In this document: positions 7,510-49,640 of the stretch, piece by piece
Layout of the letters: the number at the start of each line of letters is the position of its first letter
Numbering within the stretch: position 1 is the first letter of the stretch
From: Zanthoxylum bungeanum
Lineage: Eukaryota > Streptophyta > Magnoliopsida > Sapindales > Rutaceae
DNA: 64,000 nt
Assembly: GCA_019454045.1 (NCBI GenBank)
Contig: SKCR01036756.1
Location: 1-64,000 of the forward strand
Reading direction: 5' to 3'
Notes under the pieces: generated by a model
What the model was told of the DNA's origin: nothing
The model's database searches: none
The model's input: the letters and a program-made list of their open reading frames with translations, nothing else
Program-made: the position numbers and the translations under genes

Positions 7510-7907
7510 ACAGAAGGTCACCAACCCTTCTCCCCCTCTGTTTTTTCTCTCATTCTCTTCATTTTCATCCTCTGAAATCTCAGAATTTCTCCTCTACATC
7601 CTCACATCTCTCCTAAAAATTTTCAATAAAATTGTAATCAATTTCCGATAAGGTAATTCTTGTTTCATATTTCTTTATTATTTTCAATTTTTATGATTAT
7701 ATATGTTGTTTATATGCTGTTTGTTAGTGATTTATGATTCATATATGTAGAGTAAGTATATTAATTAATAAAATATAAATTTTTTGTAAACTATTTAATT
7801 TATCAACCAAATATATATATATATATATATGCTTAAATTAAGTATTACTGAATTAGTAATGTTGATTACTGTAAAATGATATCTAATGATTATATTATTA
7901 TATTTAG
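7510..7907 (+). promoter_or_regulatory. 5' leader and leader intron of the transposase gene
   Basis: A pyrimidine-rich stretch (7520-7590) typical of a plant 5' untranslated region is followed by a probable donor GATAAG|GTAATT at 7653 and an acceptor TATTTAG ending at 7907, just before the ATG at 7921. This gives a leader intron of about 255 bp, which includes a (TA)n tract at 7810-7831. Confidence 0.5.
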
Positions 7908-7920
7908 GTATTCTGCTGAA

Positions 7921-10900
7921 ATGGATAGAAATTGGATGAGCTCTCTGGATAGATTGAGTGTTGAATATCGTAATGGAGTGTCTGAGTTTATGGAAGTCGC
8001 AAAGCAACACATTGATGCAGAAGGTCGTGTTCGTTGTCCATGTGCAAATTGTTTGAATAGGAAAAGGAAGCGGTTAGATGAAGTTCATAATCATTTATAC
8101 ATGCCAGGAATATCACCAACTTACCGTACGTGGATTTATCACGGTGAGCAGTATAATTCTCAGTCACGGTTTTATGATGTCGGTGAAGGGAGCAGTAGTT
8201 ACAATCAACCTGCAAACGATGAGATCGCCGATATTTTGCATGACTTACAAGGTCCACAACTTGGTCATAGTGTTAGTGGCGACATGCCAGTGTTAAGTGG
8301 AAATGATCAAAATTTATTTAGTGAACTACTTGATGAGGCAAAAAAAATTCCATTCGAAGGTGCTGGAATGTCGATCTTGAATTTCGTTGTGAAATTATTA
8401 CACATTAAAGTGATCAACAGAATGACCAACAAAAGTATCGATATGATGTTAGAGTTACTGGCCCAAATGTTACCGGTTGGAAGCGAATTGCCTAAGTCGT
8501 ACTACGAGGCAAAGAAAATGTTGCGTGATCTGGGAATGGGGTATGAATCCATTCATGCTTGTAAGTTTGATTGTGTATTATTTCGTGCCGAGTATGAATC
8601 ACTTGAACATTGTCCGATATGTGGTGAAAGTCGGTACAAAGTCCGTGGTATGGGGAAGAAAGTGCCTCAAAAGATATTGCGATATTTCCCTTTAACGCCC
8701 AGGCTGCAGAGATTGTTCATGTCACGACACACAGCGACTGATATGATGTGGCATCATGAAAAGAGGATCGGTGCGGAGGGCATACTTAGACATCCTGCGG
8801 ACGGAACCGAATGGAAGGAATTTGATGACATGTACCCTCGTTTCGCAGAGGACCCCCGTAATGTCAGGTTAGGTATTGCCTCTGATGGTTTTAACCCATT
8901 TGGGAATATGTACAACTCTTATAGCATCTGGCCCGTTATTGTCATTCCATATAACTTACCTCCATGGAAATGTATGAAGGATCCGTTCATGTTTATGTCA
9001 TTGCTTATCCCTGGTCCACGTTCACCTGGTAAAGATATAAATATTTACTTGAGACCATTGATCGAGGAGTTACAAACATTATGGAATGTGGGTGTGCATA
9101 CCTATGATGCAGCTTCAGAGCAGTATTTTCAGATGCATGCCGCATTATTATGGACCATTAATGATTTTCCAGCCTATGGTTCATTATCTGGATGGAGCAC
9201 TAAGGGATACATGGCATGTCCAGTTTGTGCGGATCATACACCTTCGCAACGATTACGGAATAAAATCGGATACACGGGCCACAGGAGATTTCTTGAGTCG
9301 AGTCATCCTTGGCGGAGGAGTAAATTATTTAACGGGCACATGAACCTCAGAGTAAGCCCAATCGATTGTCTGCATTTGACATACTTTGCCAACATCAACA
9401 TCTGAAAGACAGCACACCAGGTAAACATCCTAATAATAGAGATAAAAATCGAAAACGGTTACCTGAAGAGTTGAATTGGACAGGAAAAAGTATTTTCTTT
9501 GAGTTAGAATATTGGGGGACTCTGAGTTTGCGACATAATTTGGATGTAATGCATATAGAGAAAAATATTTGTGAGAGTTTAGTGGGTACACTATTCAATA
9601 TTCCGGGTAAGACAAAAGACACTGTAAATGCTAGATTGGACCTACAAGATCTTAGAATTCGCAGTGAATTGCATTTACAAGACTCCTCTCGAGGTTTTAT
9701 TAAGCCTCCTGCTAGTTATGTGCTCAATCAATCGGAGAGAAAATCATTCTGTGATTGGCTGAAAATGGTTAAATTCCCTGATAATTATGCATCCAATATT
9801 GGGCGTTGGGTCAGAGATGATACAATAACGGGATTAAAGAGTCACGATTGTCATGTGCTGCTCGAGATTCTCCTTCCTGTTGGCATTCGACCTTATCTCC
9901 CCCCGAATGTATGTGACGCCGTACTTGATCTATGTGGCTTCTTTAAACAATTGTGTCAGAGGACATTAAGCACATCTGTTATTGACGACCTTGAGCAAGG
10001 AATCGTGATAATCCTATGCAAGCTGGAGCGAATTTTGCCACCCGCTTTCTTTGATGTCATGGTACATCTGGCTGTGCATTTACCGGATGAAGCTAGAAAG
10101 GGAGGTCCTGTCCATTACAGATGGATGTATCCCATTGAGAGGTATTATATATATATATATATATAATACAGTTTTATATAAGAAAATTTGTAACCGTTTT
10201 TTTGTGCATAGAATTTAGTGTTAATGCAAACTTGTTGTCATATCTGCAGAGCTTTGGGAGATTACAAACAATATGTCAAAAACAAGGCACGACCTGAAGG
10301 TTCAATAGCTGAAGCTATTATAATAAATGAAGCAATAACATTTTGTTCGATGTACATGCAGAATATTGAAACTCATTTCAATCGTCGGCCACGAAATTAT
10401 GATGGAGATGCAAGTAATAGCCAAGAGATCACAGTGTTCCGTCAAAATTACAGACCATTTGGGGCAGTAGGTGTCAAATTACTAACCCGTCAGGAAGTTC
10501 AACGTGCGCATTGGTTTATATTGAGTAATTGTGATGAAGTGCAACCATATTTAATGTAAGTTTTTCTGGTGCATCATTACTGAATTTTTTCCATACATTA
10601 ACCGTGATAATTTATTGTAGGCAACATCTAACAATGCTACAAATTGCTGGTGACCATAATGTTGATGAAACCCACAAAAAAGAATTTCCTAAATGGTTTG
10701 AGACAACTGTAAGTTATAATATTTTATATTTATTTTGATCCTAACATTAGACATTTCAGTTTGTTATATTAACACATATATTTCATTGTCAGATTATTAA
10801 TCAAGTGGAAAATGGTCAATTGGACTCGCAATCCTCGTTGGTTTCTTTGGCTTATGGGCCTCAAATGCAGGCGTATGAGTACAGTGGATGTATTGTCAAC

Positions 10901-11525
10901 GGAGTTAGATTTCATACCGAACAGCGAGATGTTAATCATGTGACTCAAAATTCTGGAATTGTAGTCCAAGGAGAACACGGCTCAGATGTAATTGACTTCT
11001 ACGGCGTATTGCAATCGGTCATTGAGTTCATATATCGACCCAGACGACATACTGTGCTATTCCAATGTAAGTGGTTTGACACTAATGCCAGAAAGAGGAG
11101 AATTCAAGTTAGTAATCATCTCACGTCAATTAATGTTCAACGTTGTTGGTACAAGAATGATCCATACATTTTTTGTACCCAAGCACGTTCAGTGATATAT
11201 ACCTGATCCTAAGTTAGGAACTGGATGGATGGTGGTAGAAAAGTTACAACATAGGGCCATTTGGGACACGCAGGAGAAAGATAGAGTTGACATATCAGAT
11301 GAAACACAAGAAGTCTCAGGCAATTTTGAAGTTCCTGAACAGATATTTGTTGGACCAACTGTCAACGTTCCTGAAAATATCACATTAACTCGAGCTAGTA
11401 CAGACGTTGAGCTAATTCCTCATTCTGAAGTGAGCGTTGAAGTAGCAAGTGAAGAACAATTTGACACTGAAGATGACTTCGATTCCAGTCACGAATCCTC
11501 AAATACCGACGATAATAGTGATTAA
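7921..11525 (+). pseudogene. TNP2/TNPD-like CACTA transposase, frameshifted
   Basis: Exons inferred: 7921-10141, 10250-10555, 10621-10708 and 10793-11525. The start is the ATG of MDRNWMSSLDRL, which opens a transposase-associated zinc domain (RCPCANCLNRKR, residues 1-75). The tnp2 catalytic region follows (CPICGESRYK, ASDGFNPFGNMYNSYSIWPV, GPRSPGKDINIYLRPLIEEL, FPAYGSLSGWSTKGYMACPVC). Next come a DUF4218 region (YRWMYPIERA, QYVKNKARPEGSIAEA) and a DUF4216 region (YRPRRHTVLFQCKWFDT). The tail is acidic (EDDFDSSHESSNTDDNSD). A one-base loss near 9343 shifts the frame, and a second shift lies near 11195 just before IPDPKLGTGWMVVEK. The family cuts element ends and joins them to target DNA. Family call certain, activity unlikely. 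Confidence 0.9.
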
Positions 11526-21154: not shown

Positions 21155-22120
21155 TGACCGGCGTAAACACACATGTATAACGCAAGCATACGTATCGTTC
21201 AAGTAGTATAAAAAGTATCGATCCCACGAGGACTTAATACCTAAGCTATTAATTTTATGAGGTCAAATGATTACTAGTATCTAACAGGTTGTTTGATTGA
21301 TTTGAAATGACGACGATTCTAAATTTAAAGACAAGTAAATAAAATTGTTTGAAAGTAAATTTTAAGAAAATTCAATATTAAAAACTATCTAGGGTTGTGA
21401 ATCTTTTCAATATTATTTAAAGATGAAGTGGTTATCCTATAGTTGGGTAATATATTAATTTATTAACCTGGAACACTAAATTATGTGAAAGCCTTTGTCG
21501 ATGGTCAGACACAAATACCCAGTTTAACCCAATTGAACCATATGTCTATGTCAACCAAATTATCTGGATTCATTAAGTTTAAGTTCCAATTATGGCCACC
21601 TCCTCCCGACAGGTATATGTCTATCCTGTAAGGAAATCTATTAAAGGGTTATCTATCCTCAATCCTGTAAGGAAATCTATTAAAGGGTTATCTATCCTCA
21701 AGGAAGATCGTGGGCTATTGAGTCTAAGGTCTCAAACTTAAAATCCCTATGACTAGTTCATTTTAAGTTTACTTAATCAATTTTATTAATGGCCACTTAA
21801 TAAAAAGCATTAAGATTAAGACTAAATAAATAAATCTTTATATTACCCAAACTATAATCTAACCCTTATAAACCGGTGATATTGAAATTCATCACAACCC
21901 TAGATAACTAACTTAGTTATGACACATGACTAGGGCTAGTAAAAACTTAAAAGTAAAAGCCATAAAGTAAAAATGCGAAATAGTAAATGCGGTAAAGTAA
22001 ATACTGAAAAGTAAATAACAATAAAATAAAATGCTAAGGTAAAAGGAATTACTTTTACTATTTACTATTTTAGATATCTCTCATAAAATAATATATAAAC
22101 TTGTGATAATATTACCAACC

Positions 22121-22315
22121 AGCCATATAGGCGGTAACCTGATTAATTCACATTATGTTCGACCAGCCATAAAGGCGGTATGATTTGTCCATGAACCTGC
22201 CATATAGGCGATAAGAAAATTTAATTATCAACCAGCCATATAGGCGGTATCCTTGATTAGTCGGGTTTAAACCAATTTAAATTTAATAGCCAACCGAACA
22301 ATATGACGGTATCCT
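22121..22315. repeat. LTR array of ACCAGCCATATAGGCGG units
   Basis: Five imperfect copies of a 17-20 bp unit, spaced about 35-60 bp, lie downstream of the LTR TATA box, hence in the transcribed R/U5 part. Matching arrays are at 36424-36620 and, more degraded, 54331-54530. Confidence 0.75.
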
Positions 22316-22620
22316 TATTAAGTCAAATTTTAAATAGTAAATATATTATATTTAAGGGAGATTAATCTAAATAGTAACAGTAAAAGAATTACATTTCACC
22401 TTAGCAATGAGAAGTTACCTCATCATGGTTGAATAGTAAAACTGAAACAGTAAAAACAAGATAAATTACTATTACTATTACAGAAAGTAATTACTATTAC
22501 AGAATGTAATTAAAAATTAATTACAAAACTTAAATTAAAAGAAATTAAAGAGAGAAACTTCATATTTACATCAAAGAAATGAGAGAGAATGGTGCCACTA
22601 AAACTGAAATCTCGAGCTCA

Positions 22621-22633
22621 ATTTATAGATAAT
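22621..22633 (-). promoter_or_regulatory. TATA box of the 3' LTR
   Basis: Minus-strand TCTATAAAT at about 22629-22621, just upstream of a leader with CTCTCTC-type sequence. The equivalent in the 5' LTR is at 36939-36931. The G-box array lies about 115-430 bp upstream. Confidence 0.6.
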
Positions 22634-22743
22634 TTTTGCGTCCAGCGTCGCGACGCCAAAGGCTTCAGCGTAGCGACGCTGGACCTGTTTACTTTGGTCC
22701 ACGCGGGTTGACCACGCGCATTGTTGGCATAATCTCGTGATGA

Positions 22744-23056
22744 CACGTGTCACGCGGTAAAGGTGGTGCAATAGGAAGACGACACGTGGCAGACGGTGAT
22801 TGGCTGAGCTATCGGTCTAATGAACATCTGACACGTGGCACGCATTTAGGATTGGTCCAATGAGAGATTAACACGTGGCAGCATGTGAGTCGTCGGTAAT
22901 TCGGTCCAATGAAAACTCGACACGTGTCACGCGCTTGCTTTGGTCCAATGAGATTTCGACACATGGTAGACGACGCATTTTAGCTGATCTTTCTGTGATG
23001 ATGACACGTGGCACGGCGCACGTTAGCAAGTCCATTTTCTCAGATTCTGACACGTG
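22744..23056 (-). promoter_or_regulatory. Eight-site G-box/ABRE-like array in U3 (3' LTR)
   Basis: CACGTG cores start at 22744, 22783, 22832, 22872, 22921, 23005 and 23051, with a decayed CACATG at 22962. Steps are 39-49 bp. Most sites read GACACGTGGC or GACACGTGTC, and GGTCCAATGA (CCAAT-type) motifs sit between several. Such G-boxes bind bZIP and bHLH factors in plants; response to ABA, light or stress is inferred. Confidence 0.8.
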
Positions 23057-23315
23057 TCCCTCGGCGCACGTTAGCATGTCCGGTGCACTTAGGCGTCGCG
23101 ACGCGATGAGTCTTGGCGTCGCGACGCGAACAAATTACCAAAATGCCCATTTTCCCAATTTTCACTATTTTGCTCCAAATCACCTCCAGAATGTCCTGAA
23201 ACTTTATTTATCTACAAAATAACACAAAACACATCAGAATATTCACAAAGCTCAAGAAACTATACAAAATATTAGGTTGAATGAGTGAGAAATAGTGATA
23301 GATTACCACTCATCA

Positions 23316-23329
23316 CACCCCCAAACCTA
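23316..23329 (-). promoter_or_regulatory. Polypurine tract of the Athila-like element
   Basis: Minus strand AGGTTTGGGGGTG directly abuts the 3' LTR start TGATGAG, the expected plus-strand primer position. A second similar tract (TTTAGGTTTGGGGGAAGG) lies at about 24560-24577. Confidence 0.85.
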
Positions 23330-24657
23330 ACATTTTGCTAGTCCTCGAGCAAAACACAAAATAAAATAACATAAAAAATTTAACTAAGCCACTTTCGTAG
23401 GGATCACGGTTGCATTTAGCGTATGCAACAAGCCTTTAAACCCCTAGGTGTCCCTAGTGGACGAGTTGTAGTCTCGTGAGGGTTTACAACAATGATACCC
23501 ACAAACATTTTACAAAAGTAAAAAGGTAATAAAACTAATGCACACAAAAGCAAAAAGACAAGCGAAAATAGAATAAAGAAGTTAGTGACTAATCAGGTGA
23601 AATTTCTACTCCAAGTTATTAGTTGTTTTGTTTCTTTCTAAATTACCGAATAGGTAAATTCTCTGATTATATTTACCATTCTCCATATACACAGCCAACA
23701 AAATATTAATCAACTCATTTTTGCCCACAACAGTCATAACTGCAGTTGATAAGAGAGTAATATTTTTGTCCTAAAGTTCTATCAGATTTCACACCTTTTT
23801 GTAGCAATGGAATAATTTTTCTGATTTTTCTGATTTTTTCTTTGATTTTTCTCTATTTTTTATTTATATACAATATCTTCCGTCTATGTAGCGAGTTTTG
23901 GGTCGGTGGCTCCCAAACCAGTTGGCTTTAGGGCACCAGGTGTTAAAACACCCATACGGACTTAATTACTCAGACTTCAGATATATATATTTTTGCAGCA
24001 TCTCCGTTCATGTAGCGAGCTTTGGGCCAGTGACTCCCAAACCAGTTGGTTTTAGGGCACTAGGTGTTAAAACACCCTTACAGACTTAATAACCTGGATC
24101 TTAGATGCTTTATTTTATACATCAGAATTTTTTTTTTTTTTACTCCATTACTTTTTTGAGATGCTTCCTCCAATTAAATTAGAGCACTGAATATTACAAA
24201 CTTTTCAATTACAGCTCATGTCCGTATGTTACTATGTATGTTGATAATATCTGTCAACTGAGCATATGAAGATCCATTTTAGTCAGTGTTAAGGAGAATT
24301 CACTAATTAAATAATTTAAAAGGAAATAAACAAAAATTAACTTATTTCGAAAATAGGCTTGAGATACGTCTCAGGAGTGGAAACTCCTTACTCGGCTATC
24401 TTTTACCAATTTTACATTTTTAGTCAAAACACAAAAACGCAAAATATTTTTGTAATTTTTGAAAAATTTTCAATTTTTTTTGTATTTTTCGAAAAATTTT
24501 GGATTAAAAATAAAAACAACACACAAACTAAAAAAAACAAGGTACTGATCAACTAATTCCTTCCCCCAAACCTAAATGAGACATTGTCCCCAATGTCTTA
24601 AACAGTAAAAGGAGAGTTTAGAAAATAATACCTAGCTAGCTGAAATTCTACAGGAAA
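23330..24657 (-). other. 3' untranslated region of the Athila-like element
   Basis: No open coding frame. It contains a diverged tandem duplication with a period of about 122 bp (23885-23970 and 24006-24092, each with TAGCGAG.TTTGGG and CCCAAACCAGTTGG). It also contains the minus-strand motif ACATTGGGGACAATGTCTCA followed by a GGTTTGGGGG tract near 24560-24600, a layout seen near the 3' end of Athila-type elements. Confidence 0.7.
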
Positions 24658-25350
24658 TTAAAGGTTAAGATCCAGATTAATCCTACGCCTCTTACCACGA
24701 TCATCCTCGGACCAATTTATCTTTGAAAGGATAGGGTCAACTCGTGGTTCATATGCTATGAGTTGGTCTATTAGATCCGAAGCAGTTCTGGCAGTAAAGA
24801 GGAGTTCTTTTAAAGGTTTCGACACGAACCCATTTCTCCGAGCATCATCAAGAAACACACAAAGAAAATCATAAAATCCATCAACGTTGAGCAGTCCAAT
24901 TGGTTTCTGGTGTATGTTCAGGTTCGCCCAAGATAACACAATAAAAATTTCCTCCAATGTACCCAAGCCACCTGGCAAAGCAATAAAAGCATCAGCACGG
25001 TTAATCATTTCCACTAGTCATTCAGACATACCTGGCACAATCAGTTCTTCTCCGTTTGATGGTTCAATAAGATTTGCCTCTGCCAAGGGTTTTGGGATGA
25101 TTCCCAAAACGTGACTACCTCCTTCCTGTGCAGCCTTTGAAACGATCCCCATAAGTCCAAGATTTCCTCCGCCATATATCAAGTGCATATTCCTCGCAGC
25201 TAAGACTCGACCCAATTCCTGTGCTGCTTCTATGTATTGTGGCTTAGTACCAACACTGCTACCGCAAAACACATAGATGTTTTCAACTCGTCTTCTTGAA
25301 GTGGCTTCCATTTTTTTATGTATTTCTTTCTCAACTCTGGATGCCTTCAA
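24658..25350 (-). pseudogene. LOG: LOG-like cytokinin riboside 5'-monophosphate phosphoribohydrolase carried by retrotransposon
   Basis: A single intronless frame of 230 codons with one internal TGA (25020-25018). It shows the LOG/lysine-decarboxylase-like fold signatures in order: IYVFCGSSVGTKPQYIEAA, LIYGGGNLGLMG, GGSHVLGIIPK, ADAFIALPGGLGTLEE with the PGGxGTxxE nucleotide and ribose site, and KPIGLLNVDGFYD. The likely start is the second Met at 25311 (MEATSRRRVENIY). Plant LOG enzymes release active cytokinin bases from nucleotides in the cytosol and nucleus; their genes normally have several introns. Here all are absent, so the copy passed through RNA. The stop falls at MSE*LVEM, where CGA to TGA is a likely cause. 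The C-terminus is basic and ends LDLNL. It lies in pol orientation, 222 bp after the neighbouring cargo frame. Confidence 0.9.
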
Positions 25351-25571
25351 AAGTACAATGACGGGCTGAATTTATAGTACCTGAAAAGGGTGAGTAAAAA
25401 TAGCACAAGTATCTTCCAGAGGACGATTAGTAGCGAAATAATATCATGATTAGTCAAAAAGGTCTGGATCCTGTCGAAGAAAATAAAAGAAAACAACAAA
25501 ACAAATTACAATTATTAAGAAAAGACAAAGAGATATAATATTCACAAGAAAAGTAACAGCTTGATTGACGT
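25351..25571 (-). other. Spacer between the two cargo frames
   Basis: 222 bp of AT-rich DNA without a clear frame. The internal promoter or splice site that would be needed to express the downstream LOG frame cannot be identified by eye. Confidence 0.5.
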
Positions 25572-26120
25572 CTATGCGTCAGGGACAAGTTTCCCATCCA
25601 ATTTTCTTATAAATTGGCAAACAGGGTCTTTTTGAGTCAGATTCCCAAGACTTAACTGTTGTCTTTCTTTTTTAAATTGTGTATGTAACTTGCGAATGGC
25701 TATATGAACATATCCACTGGGATGCGTCTCAAGAGTTGAAGATATTTCAACTACAGACTCCTTACTCAAGCCATCCCTAATGAATTTAATTTTGTCTTCG
25801 CGATTATCAGACACCATTCCTAAAGAACGACAACGAGTGTTGCAATTAAATCGCGCACATTTGAAACAAACACTCATTTGCTTAGCTCTACGTTTCTTTG
25901 CATAGGTGCTTCTTCCAAAACCAGGCAGATGTGAAATAAAAGAGTCAGAAGACTCACCTGCCAATCAGACTCGTGCTTCAATTACCTAACGAATATCATT
26001 AGGAATACCATGGATTGTCAATAACCTCATCCGTTCCAAGCGAGCTTTATAGACTTTCATCAGAGATTTTTGAGGGAGAGAAGGAAATTGCTTATGAAGA
26101 CTTGCGAGAGCTTCTTCCAT
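25572..26120 (-). pseudogene. Basic cysteine-rich protein resembling flexivirus nucleic-acid-binding protein
   Basis: The frame runs from ATG at 26120 to a stop at 25572, 182 codons, interrupted by TAG (25988-25986) and TGA (25967-25965). After a helical N-terminal part (about residues 1-44) comes GFGRSTYAKKRRAKQ, a basic patch, then a four-cysteine cluster C-x2-C-x4-C-x3-C (CFKCARFNCNTRC, about residues 80-92), then DKIKFIRDGLSKE. The order GRSxYAxxRRA, cysteine cluster, short FIxxG segment is the layout of the carlavirus/vitivirus nucleic-acid-binding proteins, some of which suppress RNA silencing. The match is from motif memory, not alignment. The frame sits directly after pol. It could instead be an unrelated zinc-knuckle protein. 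Confidence 0.55.
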
Positions 26121-26291
26121 ATTGAAATGACTTAATCTGTAAAAACTAAACACACAAAATTAAATCACACCAAATCACAATATATACACAAATTGCATGG
26201 GTTGCCTCCCTGCGAGCGCTAAGTTTAGAGTCGTCAGCTAGACTTGACTTCTCGAACGTTAAGCTGGATCTGAAAGTGTGACACTTTCTTT
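26121..26291 (-). other. Junction between integrase and cargo frames
   Basis: Contains minus-strand GCAGGGAGGCAACCCATGCA near 26195-26215, a GC-richer island in AT-rich DNA right after the pol stop. It may be a splice acceptor or leader region for the downstream frames; I cannot prove this. Confidence 0.4.
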
Positions 26292-27629
26292 TTATCGCTC
26301 AAATGATTCTCCCCAATAGTGTTTGACACACTGACTATTAACCTTGAATGTGTTGTTGGTATTGGGATCCAGTAACTCAACAGCTCCATAAGGTAAAACC
26401 TGAGTGATCACAAATGGTCCTGACCACCTAGATTTCAACTTTCCAGGAAAAAGTTTCAACCTCGAGTTGTACAACAACACCGCTGCCTTGGTTCCAACTG
26501 TCTGTGAACTATTTTTCGGTCATGCCATTTCTTGGTCTTTTCCTTGTACAATTTGGCATTCTCATAAGCCTGTAGGCGAAATTCCTCCAATTCGTTGAGT
26601 TGGTGAAGTCTTTTTTCTCCTGCAGCTTGTGAATCAAAATTCAACTTCTTTAGTGCCCAGTACGTCTTGTGCTCAAGCTCAACTAGCAGATGGCACGCTT
26701 TCCCAAACACCAATCGATATGGAGACATACCAATGGGTGTCTTGTAAGCTGTCCTATTGGCCCATAATGCATCATATAGTTTTGTTGACCAGTCCCTCCT
26801 TGTTGATCCAACGGTTCTTTCTAGGATTCTTTTGATTTCCCTGTTTGAAACCTCAACTTGTCCATTTGACTGTGGATGGTAAGCAGTGGCAACTTTGTGA
26901 GTAACTCCGTATTTGGATAGGAGTGCATCGAAATATCTGTTGCAGAAATGTGAACCACCATCGCTGATGATTGCACGAGGTGTTCCGAATCGAGTGAAAA
27001 TGTTCTTTTTAAGGAATTTGATCACCACTTTTGAATCATTGGATGGCAGTGCAATAGCTTCGACCCATTTGGAGACGTAGTCTACATCAACTAGGATGTA
27101 CAGGTTTTCGAATGATGGAACAAAGGGTCCCATGAAATCAATACCCCACACATCGAATATTTCCACTTCTAGAATGTTTTGCAACGGTCTTTCATTTCTC
27201 CTTGAAATATTCCCTGTTCTCTGGCATCTGTCATATTGAAAAGCAAAAAGATAAGCATCTTTAAAAAGAGTGGGCCAGAACAAACTTGATTGAAGAACTT
27301 TTGCTGCAGTTTTATTTCTGCTGAAGTGTCCGCCATATGGTGATGAATGACAGTGCTGCAAAACACTGTTGATTTCCTCCAGTGGAACACACCGTCTCAA
27401 TAATTGATCAGCACAACGTTTGAACAGGTACGGTTCATCCCAGACATAGTGTTTGACTTCTTTGAAGAACTTTTTCCGTTGCTGAGTTGTCAATTCCAAC
27501 GGCCATTTTCCTGACACAATGTAGTTGACATAGTCAGCATACCAAGGGACTTCCTGTTGTTTCATGGCAAACAGCTGTTCATCTGGAAAAGTTTCTTTGA
27601 TTGACAGATCTTTGTCAGCTGTTTCTCCA
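26292..27629 (-). pseudogene. Athila-like integrase
   Basis: Reads from a zinc-binding HHCC region at about 27365-27200 ([11 protein letters not shown] and YDRCQRTG, where the first paired Cys is now Tyr) into the catalytic core: Asp in WGIDFMGPF, Asp in ISDGGSHF and Glu in [16 protein letters not shown] (27165-26800). The C-terminal part is reached only after a frameshift near 26495 and ends LKSRWSGPFVITQVLPYGAVELLDP. It would insert the cDNA into the genome. The HHCC change and the frameshift indicate decay. Confidence 0.93.
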
Positions 27630-28656
27630 TTCTCGAGCCTCGATAGATGATCTGCCACCTGATTCTCTGTTCCTTTCCTGTCTCTGATCTCCACGTCGAA
27701 TTCTTGCAGAAGAAGTATCCAACGGATCAATCTGGGTTTGGCATCTTTCTTTGTGATCAGATATTTGATTGCTGAATGATCTGTGTAGACCACCACTTTG
27801 GGACCCAACAAATAGGAGCGGAATTTGTCAAAAGCGTACACAACTGCGAGCAACTCCTTTTCAGTGGCTGTGTAGTTGAGTTGAGCTTCATTCAGAGTTC
27901 TGCTGGAGTAGTAAATGGTGTGGAAAATCTTTGCTTTACGTTGTCCCAAAACTGCACCTACAGCAAAATCACTAGCATCGCACATCACTTCAAATGGAAG
28001 GGTCCAGTCTGGTGCTACAATGATGGGGGTAGAAATCAGCTTTTGTTTTAAGATCTCAAAAGCTTAATGGCATTTTTTGGTGAAGTTGAAAGGCACATCC
28101 TTCTCCAGAAGATTGCAAAGAGGTTTTGCAATCTTGGAAAAATCTTTGATAAATCTCTTATAAAAACCTGCATGTCCGAGAAAACTTCGAATCCCTTTGA
28201 CAGATGTTGGTGGAGGTAGTTTTTCAATTGTCTTTATCTTTGCTTTGTCTACCTCAATCCCCTTTTATGAGATCCGGTGTCCAAGAACAATGCCCTCATG
28301 TACCATGAAATGACATTTCTCCCAATTGAGCACCATGTTTGTATCTTCGCACCTTTGTAACACATGTTCAAAATTTTGCAAACAATGATCAAAAGAATCT
28401 CCAAACACAGAAAAGTCATCCATGAAAACCTCCATACTCTGCTTCTGCATGTCTGAGAATATGGCCATCATGCAACGCTGAAAAGTGGCGGGGGCATTAC
28501 ATAATCCAAATGGCATCCTGCGGAAAGCAAAAGTACCATAAGGACATGTAAATGTGGTTTTCTCCTGATCTTCTGGGGCGATGGCAATCTGATTGTATCC
28601 TGAATATCCGTCAAGAAAGCAATAGAATTCATGTCCCGCCAATCTGTCTAACATCT
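27630..28656 (-). pseudogene. Athila-like reverse transcriptase (second part) and RNase H
   Basis: From 28656 downward it reads LDRLAGHEFYCFLDGYSGYNQI, CPYGTFAFRRMPFGLCNAPATFQ, the catalytic FMDD in MEVFMDDFSVFGDSF, and VLGHRIS followed by a TAA at about 28265. KGIEVDKAKI follows, another TAA near 28063, then RNase H ([38 protein letters not shown]). The N-terminal RT part is on the other side of the 3.84-kb insertion, at 32505-33063, and the junction DQM|LDRL is exact. Confidence 0.93.
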
Positions 28657-29544
28657 TGTAGGACACAGAAGCTGGGGCGACGCATGCTGTTCTAGACTCA
28701 AGGCCTAGTTGGGAGTACAGAGTAGCCCGCGGGGGACTAAACCGGAGAATAATGGAGTCGCCACCCGGTGTGAACCGGGACAAAGATTTAAGGCCGCACT
28801 CACCCCTCGCAAGGGAAGACCTCAAACCATTGGGTTCGGAATGGTCCCTTACTTATGCCACTTGTAATGTACAGATTTATGCACTAATCCAACCAAGCCA
28901 ATGACATATATTTCCAAGTGCACCACAATCCTAAGTTCACATGCTTAAAAGTAAAGTTTACATCTAGCATATATGAAATCCAATCTTATTGCCAAGTTCA
29001 CATGTTTAAAAAAGGTAGGCTTTTGAAATAACGAGCACACAACGTCATAAGAATTCAATCATTCACATAAACATAAACACAAATAGTCATGGTAACATTT
29101 GCATGTAATATAAAGGAAATCAAAATGACGACGAATAATGTTATAGGCGCACTATGTAAAGAAGCACATAAAATATGGTCAAAATAACCGCATGATAAAC
29201 TAAATCAATACAAACACATAACTTGAAAAAATGAAGAAAGACACGAATTTAAATATGCCAAAGATGGACAATCAAAGGTGCAATTTTATATTAAAAAAAA
29301 TGAACATGCCATAATGTGATGCCAAAGAATGCAACTAACATGAGTGAAAGAAAGGAATACTGAGAAGAAGAGAAATGCAATATGCGCCTATACTTGTGCA
29401 ATTACTACCAATTTTCCATTAAGCATGCTATATGTGACACAAGATTATGCAATGAGATGTTATGAATGAATGATATGAAAAGGAAGACATGACCAACATT
29501 GTGCAACAAAAGGAATAAGGTGCATGGTTAAAATGACATTTTGC

Positions 29545-30360
29545 AAAAACAGTGAAAAATCGAGTAAATGACGGCGCGGCAAAACATCATGGCAAAGGTA
29601 GCCTTATGGCATTTTTCCTCGAATGGAGGACCTTAAAACCACCCTAGTCAAGCCCATGCGCACATATCACATAATCAAGTACAATGAATAAAGATGCATA
29701 AAAAGGGTTTTTTGTAAAACAACGAAAAATCGTGTAATAAACAGCGCGACAAAACATCATGGCAAAGGTAGCCTTATGGCATTTTCCCTCGAATGGAGGA
29801 CCTTAAAACCACCCTAGTTAAGCCCATGCGCACATATTACATAATCAAATGCAATAAATAAAGAAGCATAAAAAATGGGTTTTTGTAAAACAGCGAAAAT
29901 CGTGTAATAAACAGCGCGGCAAAACATCATGGCAAAGGTAGCCTTATGGCATTTTTCCTCGAATAGAGGACCTTAAAACCACCCTAGTTAAGCCCATGCG
30001 CACATATTACATAATCAAATGCAATAAATAAAGAAGCATAAAAAAAAGGGTTTTTATAAAACAGCGAAAAATCATGTAATAAACAGCGCGGCAAAACATC
30101 ATGGGAAAGGTAGCCTTATGGCATTTTCCCTCGAATGGAGGACCTTAAAACCACCCTAGTTAGGCCCATGCGCACATATTACATAATCAAATGCAATAAA
30201 TAAAGAAGCATAAAGAAATGATTTTTGTAAAACAGCGATAAACAGTGTAATAAACAGCGCGACAAAACATCATGGCAAAGGTAGCCTTATGGCGTTTTCC
30301 CTCGAATGGAGGACCTTGAAACCACCCTAGTTAAGCCCATGCGCACATATTACACAATGC
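29545..30360. repeat. Tandem array, five units of about 171 bp
   Basis: The core AAAACATCATGGCAAAGGTAG starts at 29581, 29751, 29921, 30093 (one mismatch) and 30264. Each unit also carries TCGAATGGAGGACCTTAAAAC and GCCCATGCGCACATAT. Confidence 0.93.
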
Positions 30361-30720
30361 ATAAAAAAATAAAACAAATAAATAAAGAATATCGGATTTC
30401 GTATACCCGATTGAATACATCTCTCGTCCAATCAAGTATACATCATCCGGCGCGGCGAAGCCTCGGGTAAAGGATTTTAACCCCTTTAAGGGGACCTTTC
30501 ATCACACTTGCTAAGCCCATGCGCACATATTACATAATGCATAAAAAAATAAAACAAATAAATAAAGAATATCAGATTTCGTATACCCGATTGAACACAT
30601 CTCTCGTCCAATCAAGTATACATCATCCGGCGCGGCGAAGCCTCGGGTAAAGGATTTCAACCCCTTTAAGGGGACCTTTTATCACACTTGCTAAGCCCAT
30701 GCGCACATATTACATATGAC
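30361..30720. repeat. Tandem duplication, two units of 180 bp
   Basis: Units 30361-30540 and 30541-30720 are nearly identical (ATAAAGAATATC.GATTTCG, CATCCGGCGCGGCGAAGCC). Each ends with the GCCCATGCGCACATATTACA block also found in the 171-bp array. Confidence 0.93.
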
Positions 30721-31709
30721 ATAAATGAATGATATGCGGAAATTAAAAGACAGAAAAATTAAACGGCAAATAATCAAATGAACAAGATATCACAAAATCA
30801 ACAAGTGTCGTTTGCTCAAGTGGTACGTGGAATTGTTACCCAAGTACAAACCGCACTACCGTTCATTCGGATTCGGCTACGGAATTTACGTCTGGGTTTC
30901 CATCCTATATACTACAAGAGACGACACTTCCATTCATCCAAAATCCACAACAAACATCATATACACAACAAATGCCACAAATACAGAAAAATAATCAAAG
31001 TAAATGACCATAAATTAAATAGAAATAAGTGTGAAAAATACCCTCAGGTCTAACCTTTTTAGTTGTCCTCGGACTTGCGTTTCCCGGAGATCGGAAGGGA
31101 TGAAAGCTCCTTACTTTTCCGGTTCACTAGCTTCACGTTTTGGCTCGCTGTTCCACTGTTTTTCCCACTATTTTGGCGTCGTTTTACTGCTATTTTTGAC
31201 GTGTTTTCTGCTCACTGTTTCAGGTCTTATTATTCTGTTTTGGTGGACTATTTGTGCGTGTTTTAGGGGGCTATTTGTGTATATTTTTTTGTGATTTTTT
31301 AAGGGTTAAATATGCAACTTTTACTCACTGGTTTGGGGTATTTTGGGGGCTATTTGAAGGGCTGGAACTGTACAAAAAGGGCTGCTGTTTGTGCGTGAAA
31401 GGGGTTGTTGTTCTGGTTGCTGTTTCACGTGGATGTGGTTGCTGTTCTGGTTGTTTTTCACGTGGATGTTGCTGCTGTTTATGAGCTTATTTTGGTGGTG
31501 ATTAGGGGCTGTGATGGTGGTGATAAGGGGTGTTGTAAATCGAGTAAGGAGGGGGATGGTGGATGTATGGTTCTCGGCCAAGAGAGAGTGAGATGAAGAG
31601 AAAGGTTTCTAGTTGGTGTCTTGTAATTTGCGTGTGAGAGGAGGGATGTCTTGATGTCTTGGGCGTGAATGAGAGAGAGTGAAGAGGAGAGGTGGCTAGG
31701 TTAGTGCAT

Positions 31710-31718
31710 GTTTATATA
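31710..31718 (-). promoter_or_regulatory. TATA box of the solo LTR
   Basis: Minus strand TATATAAAC, followed about 30 bp on by a pyrimidine-rich leader (CACTCTCTCTCATTC). It places U3 at about 32499-31720 and a long R/U5 downstream. Confidence 0.55.
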
Positions 31719-32504
31719 GAAGAGAGGTAGGGTTTGCCCTTGTCTCACAAGGTAGAGATTTTGTTTCCAAATTATGAGAGATGGGAATGGTATATACAAG
31801 ATTGAGGGGGGACAAAATATTTTAAATTAGGAAGTCAACTAATCTAAATTGGTGGATATCTTATTGAATTAGGAAGTCAACTATTTTAAATTGGTAGATG
31901 TCTTATTAGATTAGGAAGTCAAATATTTGATTAACTTTGATTGGTTAGGATTGATTTTAATTAGGCATATCTTATTTTAATTTTAGTATATGAATTATTT
32001 AAATTAGGCATGATTTTAGTTTAAGTTGGTAATTGTTTATTTTATGTTTGGTATATGTTTTATTTAATTATTTAATTAACTTAATTATTATCTTATTTAA
32101 TTAATGTTTTAATTTAATTAATATTTATTTAATTTGGGGTGTATATTAAGGCTTTGGGCGTGTGGGCTTTGGTGGGTAGGAGTGGGCTTGGCTAGGTGCA
32201 TGTTGATTTAGTTAAGTGTTTGGGCTAAGTTTGTGTGGACTAGGTGGGTGTGTAGGCTAAGTTCATGTGGACTAGGTGTGTGTGGGCCGGGTTTAGGTGT
32301 CTTGGGCCGAGCATAAAATTTTAAAACAGAAAACAAACGAGTTACTTGAAGCCAAACTAGTGAACTTAATCCGTCAATGAGTCAATTCTTGACTCTTCCC
32401 TTCCGATGTCCGTTTCCCGCGGTTTCCGTAACTTAAAAGGTAGTTGTCTCCAAATAAGACTCCTCATCGGGTTTCACATGCAAAAATGCAATGCCTACAC
32501 ATCT

Positions 32505-33063
32505 GGTCAATGAATGGTAGCGGAAAATGGTCCTTTCTCGTGGCTTTGTTCAGCTTTCTGTAATCCATGCATACTCTCCACCCAGTCACCGTTCTTGTTG
32601 GAATTAGCTCATTCTTTTCATTGGTAACCACAATAGTTCCTCCTTTCTTTGGTACACACTGCATATGACTCACCCAACTACTATATAAAATTGGGTAAAT
32701 GATGCCAGCATCCAACCATTTGATTATTTCTTTCTTCACGACTTCCTTCATGATTGGATTAAGTCTCTGTTGATGCTCCACTGTGGGTTTGTACTCATCA
32801 TTCATCAGAATCTTGTGCATGCAAAATGATGGACTAATGCCTCGAATGTCTGCTATAGTCCAGCCAATGGCTCTTTTGTGTTCTCGTAATACTCTCAGTA
32901 GCTTTTCTTCCTGCTTCAATGTTAGTGAAGAAGAAATAATAACATGTAATTCAGAAGTGTTTCCAAGAAATGCATACCTGAGATGGCTCGGAAGTAACTT
33001 CAGCTCCAGCTGTGGTGTTTCTTCAATCGAAGGCTTGATTCGATCTTTCTTGGGCAGTTCCAA
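32505..33063 (-). pseudogene. Athila-like reverse transcriptase, N-terminal part
   Basis: Begins near LELKLLPSHLRYAFLG, then EHKRAIGWTIADIRGISPSFCMHKI, MQCVPKKGGTIVV, ELIPTRTVTGWRVCMDYRKLN and HFPLPFIDQM. This is the Athila RT opening, cut at 32504 by the solo-LTR-like insertion. The residue order matches the family throughout, so it was coding until the insertion. Confidence 0.93.
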
Positions 33064-33090
33064 GCTTTCAACTGGTGGTGTCGCTTTGAA

Positions 33091-33669
33091 TCAGAATGGT
33101 TTTTCAAGGTAGTTGATACATTCCAGGATTTCAACATCTAGCTCACTGTCAGTCATGTTGGTGATGCAAGCTTCAAGTGTATCTGTGGGATTTGGCTCAG
33201 TATATTGAACGATACTTTCAACAACATCAACTCTGAAGCATTCTTCTTCCTTTTCATCACTCGGGAATTTCATGGCTTTGAAAACATTAAAGGTCACTTC
33301 TTGGTCCTGCACTTTCATGGTTAGTTCTCCTTTTTGCACATCAATCACAATTTTACCTGTAGCCAGGAATGGTCTCCCAAGAATGATAGGTATTTCTTTG
33401 TCTTCTTCCATGTCAAGGATGATGAAATCTGCTGGGAGAATTAGTTTGTCTACTTTCACCAGCATATCTTCAACAACACCTCTTGGAAATGCAAGTGTTC
33501 GGTCCGCAAGTTGCAATGAAACTGAGGTAGGCATTGCTTCTCCAATTTGCAGTTTCCTGTAAATAGAAAAAGGCATCAAGTTAACACTGGCTCTTAAATC
33601 ACATAAAGCCTTACCGATGTAATGTTCTCCAATGGTGCATGGAACTGTGAAACTGCTAGGATCTTTCAA
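33091..33669 (-). pseudogene. Athila-like aspartic protease
   Basis: Contains PCTIGEHYIGKALCDLRAS, where the usual catalytic D-L-G-A motif has become D-L-R-A, then LADRTLAFPRGVVEDMLVKV and EIPIILGRPFLATGKIVIDV. The Gly to Arg change next to the catalytic Asp should prevent normal active-site folding. The protease would process the Gag-Pol polyprotein. Its frame overlaps the upstream linker frame with a shift near 33665. Confidence 0.9.
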
Positions 33670-35370
33670 CTTCGGGGGAAGGTTTCCTCTGAATAATGGC
33701 GCTACATTCTTCCGTTAATGCTACTGTTTCGTAGTCTCCCAATCTCCGTTTTCGTGAAAGAATATCTTTCATGAATTTTACATAGCTGGGAATTTCTTCC
33801 AAGGCTTCTGCAAATGGAATGTTGATATGCAGCTTTTTGAATACCTCCAAGAAACGAGCAAACTGCTTGTCTAGTTTGTTTTTCTGAAGTCGCTGAGGAA
33901 AAGGTGGAGGTGGAATGATATGATCTTTTTCTTTTTCCTTTTCTTCTTTTTCCTCCATCTGTGGAACTGCATCTTTTGGAATTTCCTCAATTGTTGCCTT
34001 GATCCCTACATCTTTGTTGATCTCAGTACCACTTTTCAAAGTAATGCTTGAATTTGCTCATTTCCTCGGTTCCTTGGATTGGGTTCTGTGCTGCTGGGAA
34101 GATTTCCTGGTGGTCTGTAACTCTGAGCATTGGCCAGTTGGCCGATTTGATTCTCCAGTGCTTTAATAGAAGCTGATTGGCTCTGAATCACAGCATCGTA
34201 CTTTTTTAACTGAGCCAGCACTTCTGCTATTCCTGGTTCATTTGTCTGCTCCTGGCCTTTGTTTTGTTACTGAAATCCAGGTGGTGGATAGTTCTGTTGG
34301 AATCCATGTTGTGGATTGTTCTTTTGCCCTGAATTGTTACTCCATGAAAAATTAGGATGATTCCTCCACCCTGGGTTGTAGGTGTTGGAATATAGATTGT
34401 TCCCCTGTCTGTTGAAATTATTGACATAATTCACCGTCTCTTCAAGTTGGTTTGGTTCCGGTGCTCGTCCATATGGTGAACTTGTGGATCCAGTGGTAAA
34501 AGTCTCCATGAATTTGCATATCTGATCCAGCTTGGTATTGACTGGTGTATTGACTCCACTTTCATAAATTCCTGCAATTCTTTGGATCATGCTCCTTTTT
34601 GTTGGCCACAAAGAATTGTTGTTGGCCATTTCTTCGATTAGGTCTCAGGCTTGATCTTCTCCTTTTGCCATCAGGGCTCCTCCAGCAGCAGCATCGATTG
34701 TGGTTCTCATTATTCCCGAAAGTCCATTATAAAAAGTTTGGACTTGAAGCCATTTTGGAATCTCATGGTGAGGACATTTCCGGAGCAGATCTTTGTACCT
34801 TTCACAAGCTTCGTAGAGAGTTTCCGAGTCTTGTTGTACAAAGGATGTGATGTCATTTCTCAGTTTTCCAGTTCTGGCTGGTGGAAAGTACTTTGCAAGA
34901 AATTTGGTGGCTAAAATGTTCCAAGTTGTGATGGAACCTGCTGGTAGTGAATGTAGCCAAGATTTAGCTCTGTCCTTCAAGGAGTATGGGAAAACACGCA
35001 GTCTCATTGCTTCTTCAGCTTCTCGGTTGTAATTGAAAGTGCCGCAAACTTCTAGGAAGTTACTGATGTGGTTATTACGGTCTTCAATTGTATTTCCTCC
35101 AAACTGAACTGACTGCTGAATCATCTGAATGCATGTTTTGATGTCACCTGCATTTGCTGGTAAGAGAGGAAGTACAATACAAGAAATGAGTCTGTCAACC
35201 ATCGGAATGGTTCTGTCTCGAATGGGAATTGGTGGTGCAACGTTCAAAGGTTCAGGTTCCATGTTGACTAAAGCTTCTTGGCCTTCTCGCCGTTCCCTTC
35301 TCAACTGTCTGATGGTTCTTTCAATTTCCGGGTCAAGCGGTCGAAGTTCAAAGTTTCTGGTTCGTCTCAT
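33670..35370 (-). pseudogene. Athila-like gag
   Basis: The likely start is the Met at 35370 (MRRTRNFELRPLDPEIERTI). The retrotransposon gag domain follows (RLRVFPYSLKDRAKSWLHSL, KFLAKYFPPARTGKLRNDI, YKDLLRKCPHHEIP), then DLIEEMA after a TGA at about 34645. A Gln/Asn-rich region follows to a TAA near 34267, a coiled segment (LAQLKKYDAVIQSQSASIKALENQ), a frameshift near 34050 and a Lys/Glu/Pro-rich linker into the protease. Gag packages the RNA in virus-like particles. At least two stops and one shift make it inactive. Confidence 0.9.
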
Positions 35371-35479
35371 GAAGTTTCTGAGAACCTGAAACACAAGAAA
35401 ATAAAAAAACAATAAGTAAAAAGAAAATTAGATACAAGTAACGGTATCTAACCTTAAAACTAATAGTGAAAGATAAATA

Positions 35480-35505
35480 AGTCCCCGGCAACGGCGCCAA
35501 AAACT
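35480..35505 (-). promoter_or_regulatory. Primer-binding site of the Athila-like element
   Basis: Immediately after the 5' LTR end (CCGGTCA) the minus strand reads TGGCGCCGTTGCCGGGGAC, the usual PBS of Athila-type plant Gypsy elements, commonly assigned to a tRNA-Asp primer. Confidence 0.85.
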
Positions 35506-37628
35506 TGACCGGCGTAAACACACACGTATAACGCAAGCATACGTATCGTTCAAGTAGTATAAAAAGTATCGATCCCACGAGGACTTAATACCTAAGCTAT
35601 TAATTTTATGAGGTCAAATGATTACTAGTATCTAACAGGTTGTTTGATTGATTTGAAATGGCGACGATTCTAAATTTAAAGACAAGTAAATAAAATTGTT
35701 CGAAAGTAAATTTTAAGAAAATTCAATATTAAAAACTATCTAGGGTTGTGAATCTTTTCAATATTATTTAAGATGAAGTGGTTATCCTATAGTTGGGTAA
35801 TATATTAATTTATTAACCTGGAACACTAAATTATGTGAAAGCCTCTGTCGATGGTCAGACATAAATACCCAGTTTAACCCAATTGAACCATATGTCTATG
35901 TCAACCAAATTATCTGGATTCATTAAGTTTAAGTTCCAATTATGGCTACCCCCGCCCGACAGGTATATGTCTATCCTGTAAGGAAATCTATTAAAGGGTT
36001 ATCTATCCTCAAGGAAGATCGTGGGCTATTGAGTCTAAGGTCTCAAACTTAAAATCCCTATGTCTAGTTCATTTTAAGTTTACTTAATCATTTTATTAAT
36101 GGCCAGTTAATAAAAAACATTAAGATTAAGACTAAATAAATAAATATTTATATTACCAAACTATAATCTAACCCTTATAAACCGGTGATATTGAAATTCA
36201 TCACAACCCTAGATAACTAACTTAGTTATGACAAATGACTAGGGCTAGTAAAAACTTAAAAGTAAAAGCCATAAAGTAAAAATGCGAAATAGTAAATACG
36301 GTAAAGTAAATACTGAAAAGTAAATAACAATAAAATAAAATTCTAAGGTAAGAGGAATTAATTTTACTATTTACTATTTTAGATATCTCTCATAAAATAA
36401 TATATAAACTTGTGATAATATTACCAACCAGCCATATAGGCGGTAACCTGATTAATTCACATTATGTACGACCAGCCATAAAGGCGGTATGATTTATCCA
36501 TGAACCTGCCATATAGGCGGTAAGAAAATTTAATTATCAACCAGCCATATAGGCGGGGTATCCTTGATTCAGTCAGGTTTAAACCAATTTAAATTAATAG
36601 CCAACCGACCAATATGGCGGTATCCTTATTAAGTCAAATTTTAAATAGTAAATATATTATATTTAAGAGAGATTAATCTAAATAGTAATAGTAAAAGAAT
36701 TACCTTTCACCTTAGCAAGGAGAAGTTACCTCATCATGGTTGAATAGTAAAACTGAAACAGTAAAAACAAGATAAATTACTATTACTATTACAGAAAGTA
36801 ATTACTATTACAGAATGTAATTAAAAATTAATTACAAAACTTAAATTAAAAGAAATTAGAGAGAGAAACTCTCTATTTACATCAAAGAAATGAGAGAGAA
36901 TAGTGCCACTAAAACTGAAATCTCGAGCTCAATTTATAGACAATTTTTGCGTCCAGCGTCGCGACGCCAAGGGCTTCAGCGTAGCGACGCTGGACCTGTT
37001 TACTTTGGTCCACGCGGGTTGACCACGCGCATTGTCGGCATAATCTCGTGATGACACATGTCACGCGGTAAAGGTGGTGCAATAGGAAGACGACACGTGG
37101 CAGACGGTGATTGGATGAGCTATCGGTCTAATGAACATCTGACACGTGGCACGCGTTTAGGATTGGTCCAATGAGAGATTAACACGTGGCAGCATGTGAG
37201 ACGCCGGTAATTTGGTCCAATGAAAACTCGACACGTGTCACGCGTTTGCTTTGGTCCAATGAGATTTCGACACGTGGTAGACGGCGCATTTTAGCTGATC
37301 TTTCTGTGATGATGACACGTGGCACGGCGCACGTTAGCAAGTCCATTTTCTCAGATTCTGACACGTGTCCCTCGGCGCACGTTAGCATGTCCGGCGAACT
37401 TTAGGCGTCGCGACACGATGAGTCTTGGCGTCGCGACGCGGACAAATTACCAAAATGCCCATTTTCCCAATTTTCACTGTTTTGCTCCAAATCACCTCCA
37501 GAATGTCCTGAAATTTTATTTATCTATAAAATAACACAAAACACATCAAAATATTCATAAAGCTCAAGAAACTATACAAAATATTAGGTTAAATGAGTGG
37601 GAAATAGTGATAGATTTACCACTCATCA
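35506..37628 (-). repeat. 5' LTR of the Athila-like element
   Basis: 2123 bp, the counterpart of 21155-23315. It carries the same features: TATA at 36939-36931, GCCATATAGGCGG array at 36424-36620, GCGTCGCGACGC-type palindromes at about 36957 and 37430, and the G-box array at 37055-37367. Confidence 0.95.
37055..37367 (-). promoter_or_regulatory. Eight-site G-box/ABRE-like array in U3 (5' LTR)
   Basis: CACGTG cores start at 37094, 37143, 37183, 37232, 37271, 37316 and 37362, plus a decayed CACATG at 37055. The decayed site differs from the one decayed in the other LTR, so the ancestral LTR had eight intact sites. Spacing is 39-49 bp. Confidence 0.8.
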
Positions 37629-43385: not shown

Positions 43386-43904
43386 TGTTAGAAATTCTTC
43401 AAAATATTTATTTAAGGGTATTTCTGTCAAGTTGGTATCATTGGGTGCTTGTGAGGGGTATAACCCTTTGGAGGGTTGCCCCCAACCCAAAGGGTGCCCT
43501 ATTGGCACCCTCCCATGCCTTATATAAGAAGGCTTGATATCCAAAATAATACACAGAAAGAACCCGATTTTGATATATAAGAGACATTGTTTTCCTTTGT
43601 TTTTAAGAGAGTTTCACCATATTCCTAGTTCATACACTTGTTAAGGAGTGCTCCTTGAACAAGAAGATTCCAAGTAATCCTGGGAGAACGTTGGCAAAAC
43701 GAATCCGTAAAGTACCTGTGACGGAGCCAATAAGTTCTTAAGGACAGAGATCATCTCGACTTGGACAATTCTGTGATCTCCATTTTCTGGTTTGTTTTAA
43801 TGGTTTTCTGGTTTTAGGGTTTCATGCATCTAGATCTATTTTGTTGTTTTGATCTGTTTGATTGCAAGTTATATTACTGTTTAATGACACAAATTATACT
43901 AACA
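43386..43904 (+). repeat. 5' LTR of the Copia element
   Basis: 519 bp with a TATA box TATATAA at 43521-43527, implying transcription from about 43550. It contains CAATAAGTTCTTAAG at 43728-43742, the exact reverse complement of 43907-43921 just outside the LTR. Confidence 0.95.
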
Positions 43905-43906
43905 AT

Positions 43907-49635: not shown

Positions 49636-49640
49636 ATATA

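Follow-up and report, generated by a model that had tools for sequence, protein, structure and literature searches.

An Athila-like retrotransposon lineage of Zanthoxylum bungeanum with a LOG-type gene as putative accessory gene

The element and the genes it carries

Analysis of a 64,000-nt stretch of Zanthoxylum bungeanum DNA (hereafter the window; contig C33159 of the 3.96 Gb assembly that was searched) revealed an LTR retrotransposon with a LOG gene located between its integrase and its 3′ LTR, in pol orientation (Table 1). The LTRs had TG...CA termini (first bases TGATGAG, last bases CCGGTCA), and their alignment in two pieces gave identities of 96.7 and 98.2% and a K80 of 0.0265 over 2118 columns. 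At a substitution rate of 1.3e-8, this distance corresponds to approximately 1 My. A purine tract preceded the 3′ LTR, the primer-binding site was of what we take to be the Athila/Tat type, and the target duplication (ACAAC/ACAGC) was equal at four of five bases. The host sequence of the element was a LINE: joining the flanks without the element gave an open LINE frame, and zf-RVT was found after the element. The LTR pair, the duplication and the LINE flanks bear out an earlier note on this DNA, made from the sequence alone, which had placed an intronless LOG frame inside a single element delimited by LTRs and by a duplicated target site.

Table 1. Features of the Athila-like element in the window
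Feature	Position	Strand	Basis or remark
Whole Athila-like LTR retrotransposon	21155..37628	minus	LTR pair, primer-binding site, purine tract, 4/5 target duplication
5′ LTR	35506..37628	minus	pairwise alignment with 3′ LTR
Primer-binding site TGGCGCCGTTGCCGGGGAC	35481..35499	minus	just internal to 5′ LTR
gag, first of several frames	34648..35427	minus	Pfam Retrotrans_gag 1e-21
RT, two pieces (32467-33090 and 28268-28852)	28268..33090	minus	insertion of ~3.6 kb between the pieces
RNase H and integrase frame	26459..28063	minus	Pfam matches on 26456-27988
Viral-NABP-like gene (182 codons; frame broken by two stops)	25572..26120	minus	Pfam Carla_C4/Viral_NABP
Conserved non-coding block with TTTTCAGG site and TATAAATT-like run	25351..25411	minus	43-copy alignment
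LOG gene, 217 codons, one stop	24658..25311	minus	frame reading and Pfam
3′ LTR	21155..23315	minus	pairwise alignment with 5′ LTR

The Athila-type order of gag, RT, RNase H and integrase was present, as were long LTRs and a long internal region, and we call the element Athila-like on this layout and the primer-binding site. Extra ORFs occur in the 3′ part of Athila elements. The RNase H-integrase frame matched RT_RNaseH (8.8e-34), rve (2e-16) and Integrase_H2C2 (4.9e-8), and the downstream RT piece matched RVT_1 (6.6e-27 at 28265-28825); the upstream piece had no Pfam match and was placed by reading. The insertion that splits RT contained tandem repeats of ~171 and ~180 bases at 29530-30682. 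An additional RNase H is given as a mark of Tat in the accessible parts of PMC6317226, and none was seen in Pfam scans of the element's frames, which are broken. The ATHILA ORF-1 domain (PF03078), for which there was no match among the scanned frames, is present in 16% of Athila elements according to the same parts of that source, so most lack it.

The LOG gene runs from an ATG at 25311 to a stop codon ending at 24658, with a single in-frame stop at 25018-25020. The one interrupting stop agrees with the earlier note, and the 230 codons given there reduce to the 217 from the ATG, the remainder preceding it. PF03641 matched at 24658-25014 (3.3e-25) and the SLOG family PF18306 at 25018-25350 (1.8e-11), where PF03641 alone was below its cut-off. 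LOG ranks among the less damaged genes of this copy, as the note had also noticed with respect to gag and pol, because RT is split by the insertion, gag is spread over more than one frame and two stops interrupt the NABP-like gene. Of 8000 candidates scored in a search of 5.8 billion proteins, 7877 were relatives. Among the matches listed, the closest full-length relatives had 217 aa, 88% identity and no names, and the named ones were mostly from Xanthoceras and Populus, at 50–59% identity. In an alignment of 29 relatives, the proline, glycines, threonine and last glutamate of the motif PGGxGTxxE were invariant. As the window's own frame is broken, the fold was assessed on the relative P0001, whose model (pLDDT 85.7) had as its top PDB match 2a33, a plant LOG (2a33_B, TMt 0.94, E 1.7e-19). 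The element LOG shares both fold and PGGxGTxxE motif with the plant LOG phosphoribohydrolases 2a33 and 1ydh, to which P0001 was 46 and 41% identical, respectively, over the structural match. An IMG/VR scan gave no relative for P0001; a single match (L001) from the IMG/VR scan with A1 lay within a long SbcC-like frame and was taken as chance.

Adjoining LOG is a second gene, unremarked in the earlier note. An open 130-aa stretch of it matched Carla_C4 (6.6e-6; 26.4 vs. a cut-off of 20.9 bits) and Viral_NABP (1.5e-5; 25.5 vs. 23 bits), and had 340 relatives at E ≤0.01 among 343 candidates, many of them 182 aa long, the named ones coming from Populus, Xanthoceras, Acer, Parasponia, Rhamnella and Orobanche. 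Among aligned relatives at E ≤0.1, Carla_C4 was found in 43/43 (best 3.7e-8) and Viral_NABP in 42/43 (best 1.2e-8), and C85, C88, C93 and C97 were invariant in the 43, with the spacing C-x2-C-x4-C-x3-C. Like the carlavirus NABP, the protein has a cluster of four cysteines immediately preceded by a basic stretch, but it differs in its cysteine spacing, its length of 182 aa and its location in an element. One carlavirus finger is spaced C-x2-C-x12-C-x4-C (accessible parts of PMC8839810), a pattern not matched by the cysteines of the 43 relatives. Because of this difference in spacing, we call the gene NABP-like and do not file it as a carlavirus gene. Its structure model (pLDDT 59.1) was too poor for fold comparison, and the IMG/VR scan gave nothing for the NABP-like protein P0121.

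In an alignment of 43 copies, the block lying 100–40 bases before LOG had 20-column means of 0.88–0.90, vs. 0.57–0.79 further upstream. Within 300 bases upstream of LOG, a pyrimidine run ending TCAGG was present in 40/43 copies and an exact CTATAAATT in 23/43. The block is a candidate splice acceptor or promoter.

Copies in the genome, element plans and selection

A genome search with PF03641 returned at least 150 LOG places. The best 150, a set biased to well-preserved copies in which some places may be allelic or on duplicate contigs, were all above the Pfam cut-off, and in 147 the domain was stop-free. The loose first-look totals of 47331 (PF03641) and 46456 (NABP) are not copy counts. Twenty of the best 150 places, spread along the list, were sampled in stretches of up to 10 kb. 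All 20 matched the LTR family of the window, with an LTR downstream of LOG in 19. LTR pairs spaced 5.3–14.3 kb apart enclosed LOG in L011, L012, L013, L018, L019, L021, L022 (where the pair was visible over 182 bases only) and L026, in addition to the window; a repeat at a 4.2 kb offset in L030 was left uncounted. At 53411-54817 the window contained another copy from this LTR family, at about 84–89% identity.

The sampled loci followed different plans. RT and RNase H-integrase matches were present in 10/20, some of them partial (L015 having the first part of RNase H-integrase only). In 4/20, pol was deleted and NABP and LOG were kept; these had a common deletion junction, from window-internal position 2271-2281 to 8875, and in two of them (L020 and L027) gag was truncated or only partly inside the fetched stretch. 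LOG without NABP or pol was found in 5/20 (L011, L018, L019, L026 and, doubtfully, L030), and the contig of the remaining locus was too short to class. The youngest of eight LTR pairs measured (K80 0.0099) belonged to L019, indicating that LOG-only elements moved recently. On a DNA tree of 37 LOG sequences the three plan classes did not cluster (LOG-only required 7 changes vs. a shuffled mean of 7.3), which suggests that LOG may have been exchanged between element backbones, on a tree most of whose branches are weakly supported.

When P0121 served as query against the genome, at least 150 places were obtained, at identities of up to 99%; this NABP-like protein may therefore itself derive from Z. 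bungeanum. From the best 150 of these, 19 were picked by NABP rank alone, with ~1 kb downstream included. LOG followed NABP in 19/19, ~250 bases downstream; the pair is thus the rule among the sampled NABP-bearing copies of this genome. Ten of the 19 LOGs aligned ungapped over 217 codons and only six were also stop-free, so many copies have decayed. In the larger fetched LOG set, 29/48 rows (duplicates included) were full-length, ungapped and stop-free. A plant-like contig (L002, positions 1787-2347) from the prokaryote-genome scan carried an integrase followed by NABP and, in the 983 bases that were left, nothing matching LOG. LOG is therefore not universal in NABP-bearing elements, and NABP may be an older resident of the element than LOG. 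The record containing this plant-like retroelement contig is bacterial, a MAG of Candidatus Nomurabacteria, and the contig is probably contamination.

These copies bear on the possibility, which the note had named as its own refutation, that a processed LOG copy was a private late insertion into one element. At least 150 LOG places, the identical placement of LOG next to this LTR family in the sampled loci, the common upstream block and the 19/19 NABP-LOG pairs refute it, and we give it next to no credence.

Selection was assessed by Nei-Gojobori dN/dS pooled over pairs, which share branches and are not independent. LOG, whose slight damage the earlier note had read as a hint of retention until recently, is under purifying selection across many copies: dN/dS was 0.206 among 37 distinct copies and 0.244 in the NABP-picked copies (10 ungapped of 19). 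The value was lowest in the Pfam region (residues 54–184; 0.155), and stood at 0.293 for residues 1–53 and 0.312 for residues 185–217, two stretches beyond the Pfam region by which the copies had been picked. By plan, LOG dN/dS was 0.170 in full elements (9), 0.261 in pol-deleted (4) and 0.219 in LOG-only elements (4). The 37 copies were those kept from 48 rows after L003 (the same place as L011), L010 (the same place as L012), L008 (near-identical to L007), L045 (without a LOG match of 185 residues) and gapped or truncated LOGs had been dropped; L003, L010 and L008 were retained for the neighbouring genes. For NABP, dN/dS was 0.281 as a ratio of means over 13 rows (the broken copy of the window and two pairs of duplicates among them) and 0.212 over the 19 NABP-picked copies. 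Constraint on LOG was looser than on pol, where ratios of means were 0.114 for RNase H-integrase (5) and 0.093 for RT (8).

LOG might also have no function and, as a passenger, owe its spread to high copy number and to recombination between copies, as the 13 decayed LOGs of the 19 NABP-picked copies and the plan classes unclustered on the LOG tree would allow. Pooled dN/dS, however, was 0.155–0.312 in all computed subsets apart from the tail (14 codons) of the NABP-picked, unbiased copies, and LOG was retained in elements without pol and NABP; we consider a passenger improbable.

Origin of LOG and its C-terminal tail

A host-type motif pattern occurred at 29 sites in the genome, some perhaps allelic, of which four host LOG loci were read. 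All four were split by introns, with breaks near LOG3 residues 44, 76–86 and 120 (inside the PGG motif). Further breaks lay near residues 144 and 190 in L051 and L053 and near 190 in L052, while L054 was uninterrupted at both; the element LOGs were continuous through every host intron position. The contrast drawn in the note between an intronless element gene and intron-bearing host genes thus held at 4/4 host loci, and it fits capture of a spliced mRNA. In a protein tree of 52 sequences, a single dividing branch (100/100) separated 38 element-type LOGs from 14 host LOGs, the latter being of the LOG1/LOG3 type. The simplest reading of these sequences is a single capture of a spliced host LOG mRNA. 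That the gene might instead be an ordinary host LOG hit by retroelement insertions agrees with its family identity, but the four host loci are intron-split and LTR pairs enclose LOG at 5.3–14.3 kb; for the window this is refuted by the joined flanks, which restore the LINE frame, and its overall probability is negligible.

The window LOG ends in KRRRINLDLNL. Such a basic stretch with an LxLxL end was present in 80/101 element-type relatives, vs. 0/119 LOG1/LOG3-type proteins. The 101 are those of at least 205 residues among 120 listed, classed as element-type from protein alone outside Zanthoxylum; the 119 cover the LOG1/LOG3 type, other host types being represented through the four genome loci, none of which (0/4) had the tail at its end. 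The basal relatives P0033 and P0075 end before the LxLxL. The leucines L213, L215 and L217 were each present at ≥90% in 29 aligned relatives, and among the 37 genome copies L213 was found in 36, L215 in 34 and L217 in 35. In the P0001 model, residues 203–217 were disordered (pLDDT under 50). Tail dN/dS was 0.600 in the NABP-picked copies (14 codons, 10 copies) vs. 0.195 in the selected set, and the value from the unbiased set lends selection on the tail within this genome weak support.

EAR motifs bind TOPLESS. The EAR repressor motif is defined as LxLxL or DLNxxP in the accessible parts of PMC6479872, and L213/L215/L217 have the LxLxL form. The basic stretch and LxLxL end might, as a tentative proposal from the residues, send the protein into the nucleus and towards co-repressors, for which we would put the chances clearly short of even. 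A stronger version would have the tail outweigh the enzyme, the protein being a nuclear factor that recruits co-repressors with the LOG fold as a scaffold, for example dampening host silencing or hormone-response genes. It could draw on leucines conserved in an otherwise disordered tail and on the tail's distribution (80/101 vs. 0/119, and 0/4 host loci). Since the key residues of PGGxGTxxE are invariant in the 29-relative alignment, dN/dS is lowest in the Pfam region (0.155) and reaches 0.600 in the tail of the small unbiased set, and the strict ending is missing in 21/101 relatives, including P0033 and P0075, we regard this version as unlikely. Three Populus proteins named LOGL10 in the database (P0039, P0053 and P0084) also bore the tail of the element-type LOGs. 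Part of the genes annotated as LOG in plants may therefore be copies from retroelements.

Possible function and earlier reports

We place a probability of roughly 0.7 on the reading that LOG is an accessory gene of this Athila-like lineage, in which a spliced host LOG mRNA would have been captured once and the gene retained through many rounds of transposition by purifying selection. Judging by motif and fold, the product is probably still a phosphoribohydrolase, which would free active cytokinin from riboside monophosphates and whose RNA would be spliced or have a start of its own; we lean towards this with somewhat less assurance. The gain to the element might be that local cytokinin keeps host cells dividing or less silenced, so that insertions reach the next generation, perhaps with the aid of the NABP-like protein; this we rate slightly below an even chance.

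Defective oncogene-carrying animal retroviruses have lost replication genes and kept a growth-related host gene. Elements reduced to LTRs, 5′ region and LOG resemble them in plan only, being plant retrotransposons known from sequence. An ambitious scheme would join a viral-type NABP and a nuclear, EAR-tagged cytokinin enzyme in a two-gene cassette for host manipulation, with the defective LOG-only derivatives as counterparts, in plan, of the oncogene retroviruses; as a whole this is doubtful.

In 2011, Steinbauerova et al. reportedly described a LOGL4-like ORF in two Athila-like elements. That work is cited in PMC9289625, whose accessible parts report YgdH domains of the LOG type in Gypsy consensus sequences from two Citrus species and, with a filter off, also from Populus trichocarpa. 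LOG in Gypsy elements has thus been reported before, and the novelty claim of the earlier note, which knew of no described Athila element with such cargo, fails. Those eudicot Ty3/Gypsy elements have the same LOG domain, but the accessible parts of PMC9289625 mention neither an NABP-like partner nor LOG-only or pol-deleted derivatives, the tail or selection on LOG. The same source describes orchid Gypsy elements carrying an AlkB RNA demethylase, likewise a captured enzyme ORF kept through rounds of replication; these differ in the enzyme and in their Ogre/Tat-related lineage, and no viral-like second gene is mentioned in its accessible parts. The element LOG differs from plant LOGs, for its part, in having no introns and in its KKRK..LxLxL tail, absent from the 119 LOG1/LOG3-type proteins and the four host loci.

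Among open papers, PMC9289625 was the one to combine LONELY GUY with Athila retrotransposons, a genome paper being added when Gypsy was sought instead, and LOGL4 was absent from the best ten of 432 matches. No report was found there of the NABP-LOG pair, pol-less or LOG-only derivatives, LOG selection or the tail, and nothing linked the carlavirus NABP with LTR retrotransposons: the names and accessions of Carla_C4/Viral_NABP led to unrelated work only, and 'viral nucleic acid binding' with retrotransposon to an unrelated review. 'Lysine decarboxylase' co-occurs with LTR retrotransposon in the accessible parts of PMC12860560 and PMC10606437, whereas those of PMC7264820 and PMC11963269 have no passage on lysine decarboxylase or carlavirus, nor those of PMC11963269 on cytokinin. 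As far as searched, the pairing of NABP and LOG, the elements stripped of pol or reduced to LOG, selection on LOG and the tail are apparently new.

A brief earlier report of LOG in Gypsy elements thereby becomes a testable case of a transposon possibly using a host hormone, resting on numerous copies, of which a good share are intact, on selection, on a viral-like partner and on stripped-down elements that retain LOG. It is relevant to the role of additional ORFs in the LTR retrotransposons of plants, and to the question whether certain genes annotated as LOG in plants are copies from elements.

Elsewhere in the window, pieces of a tnp2-type DNA transposon, presumably of the CACTA type, lay at 7852-11203 (Transposase_21, DUF4218 and DUF4216). 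Copia-type gag, integrase and RVT_2 frames were found at 44736-48532, flanked by repeats of 98.5% identity (43386-43906 and 49114-49637). A direct repeat pair at 54994-56252 and 62745-64000, 96.8% identical, perhaps represents the LTRs of another element, and a frame at 881-1282 that matched the N-terminal domain of cytosol aminopeptidase (PF02789) is perhaps an exon of a host gene.
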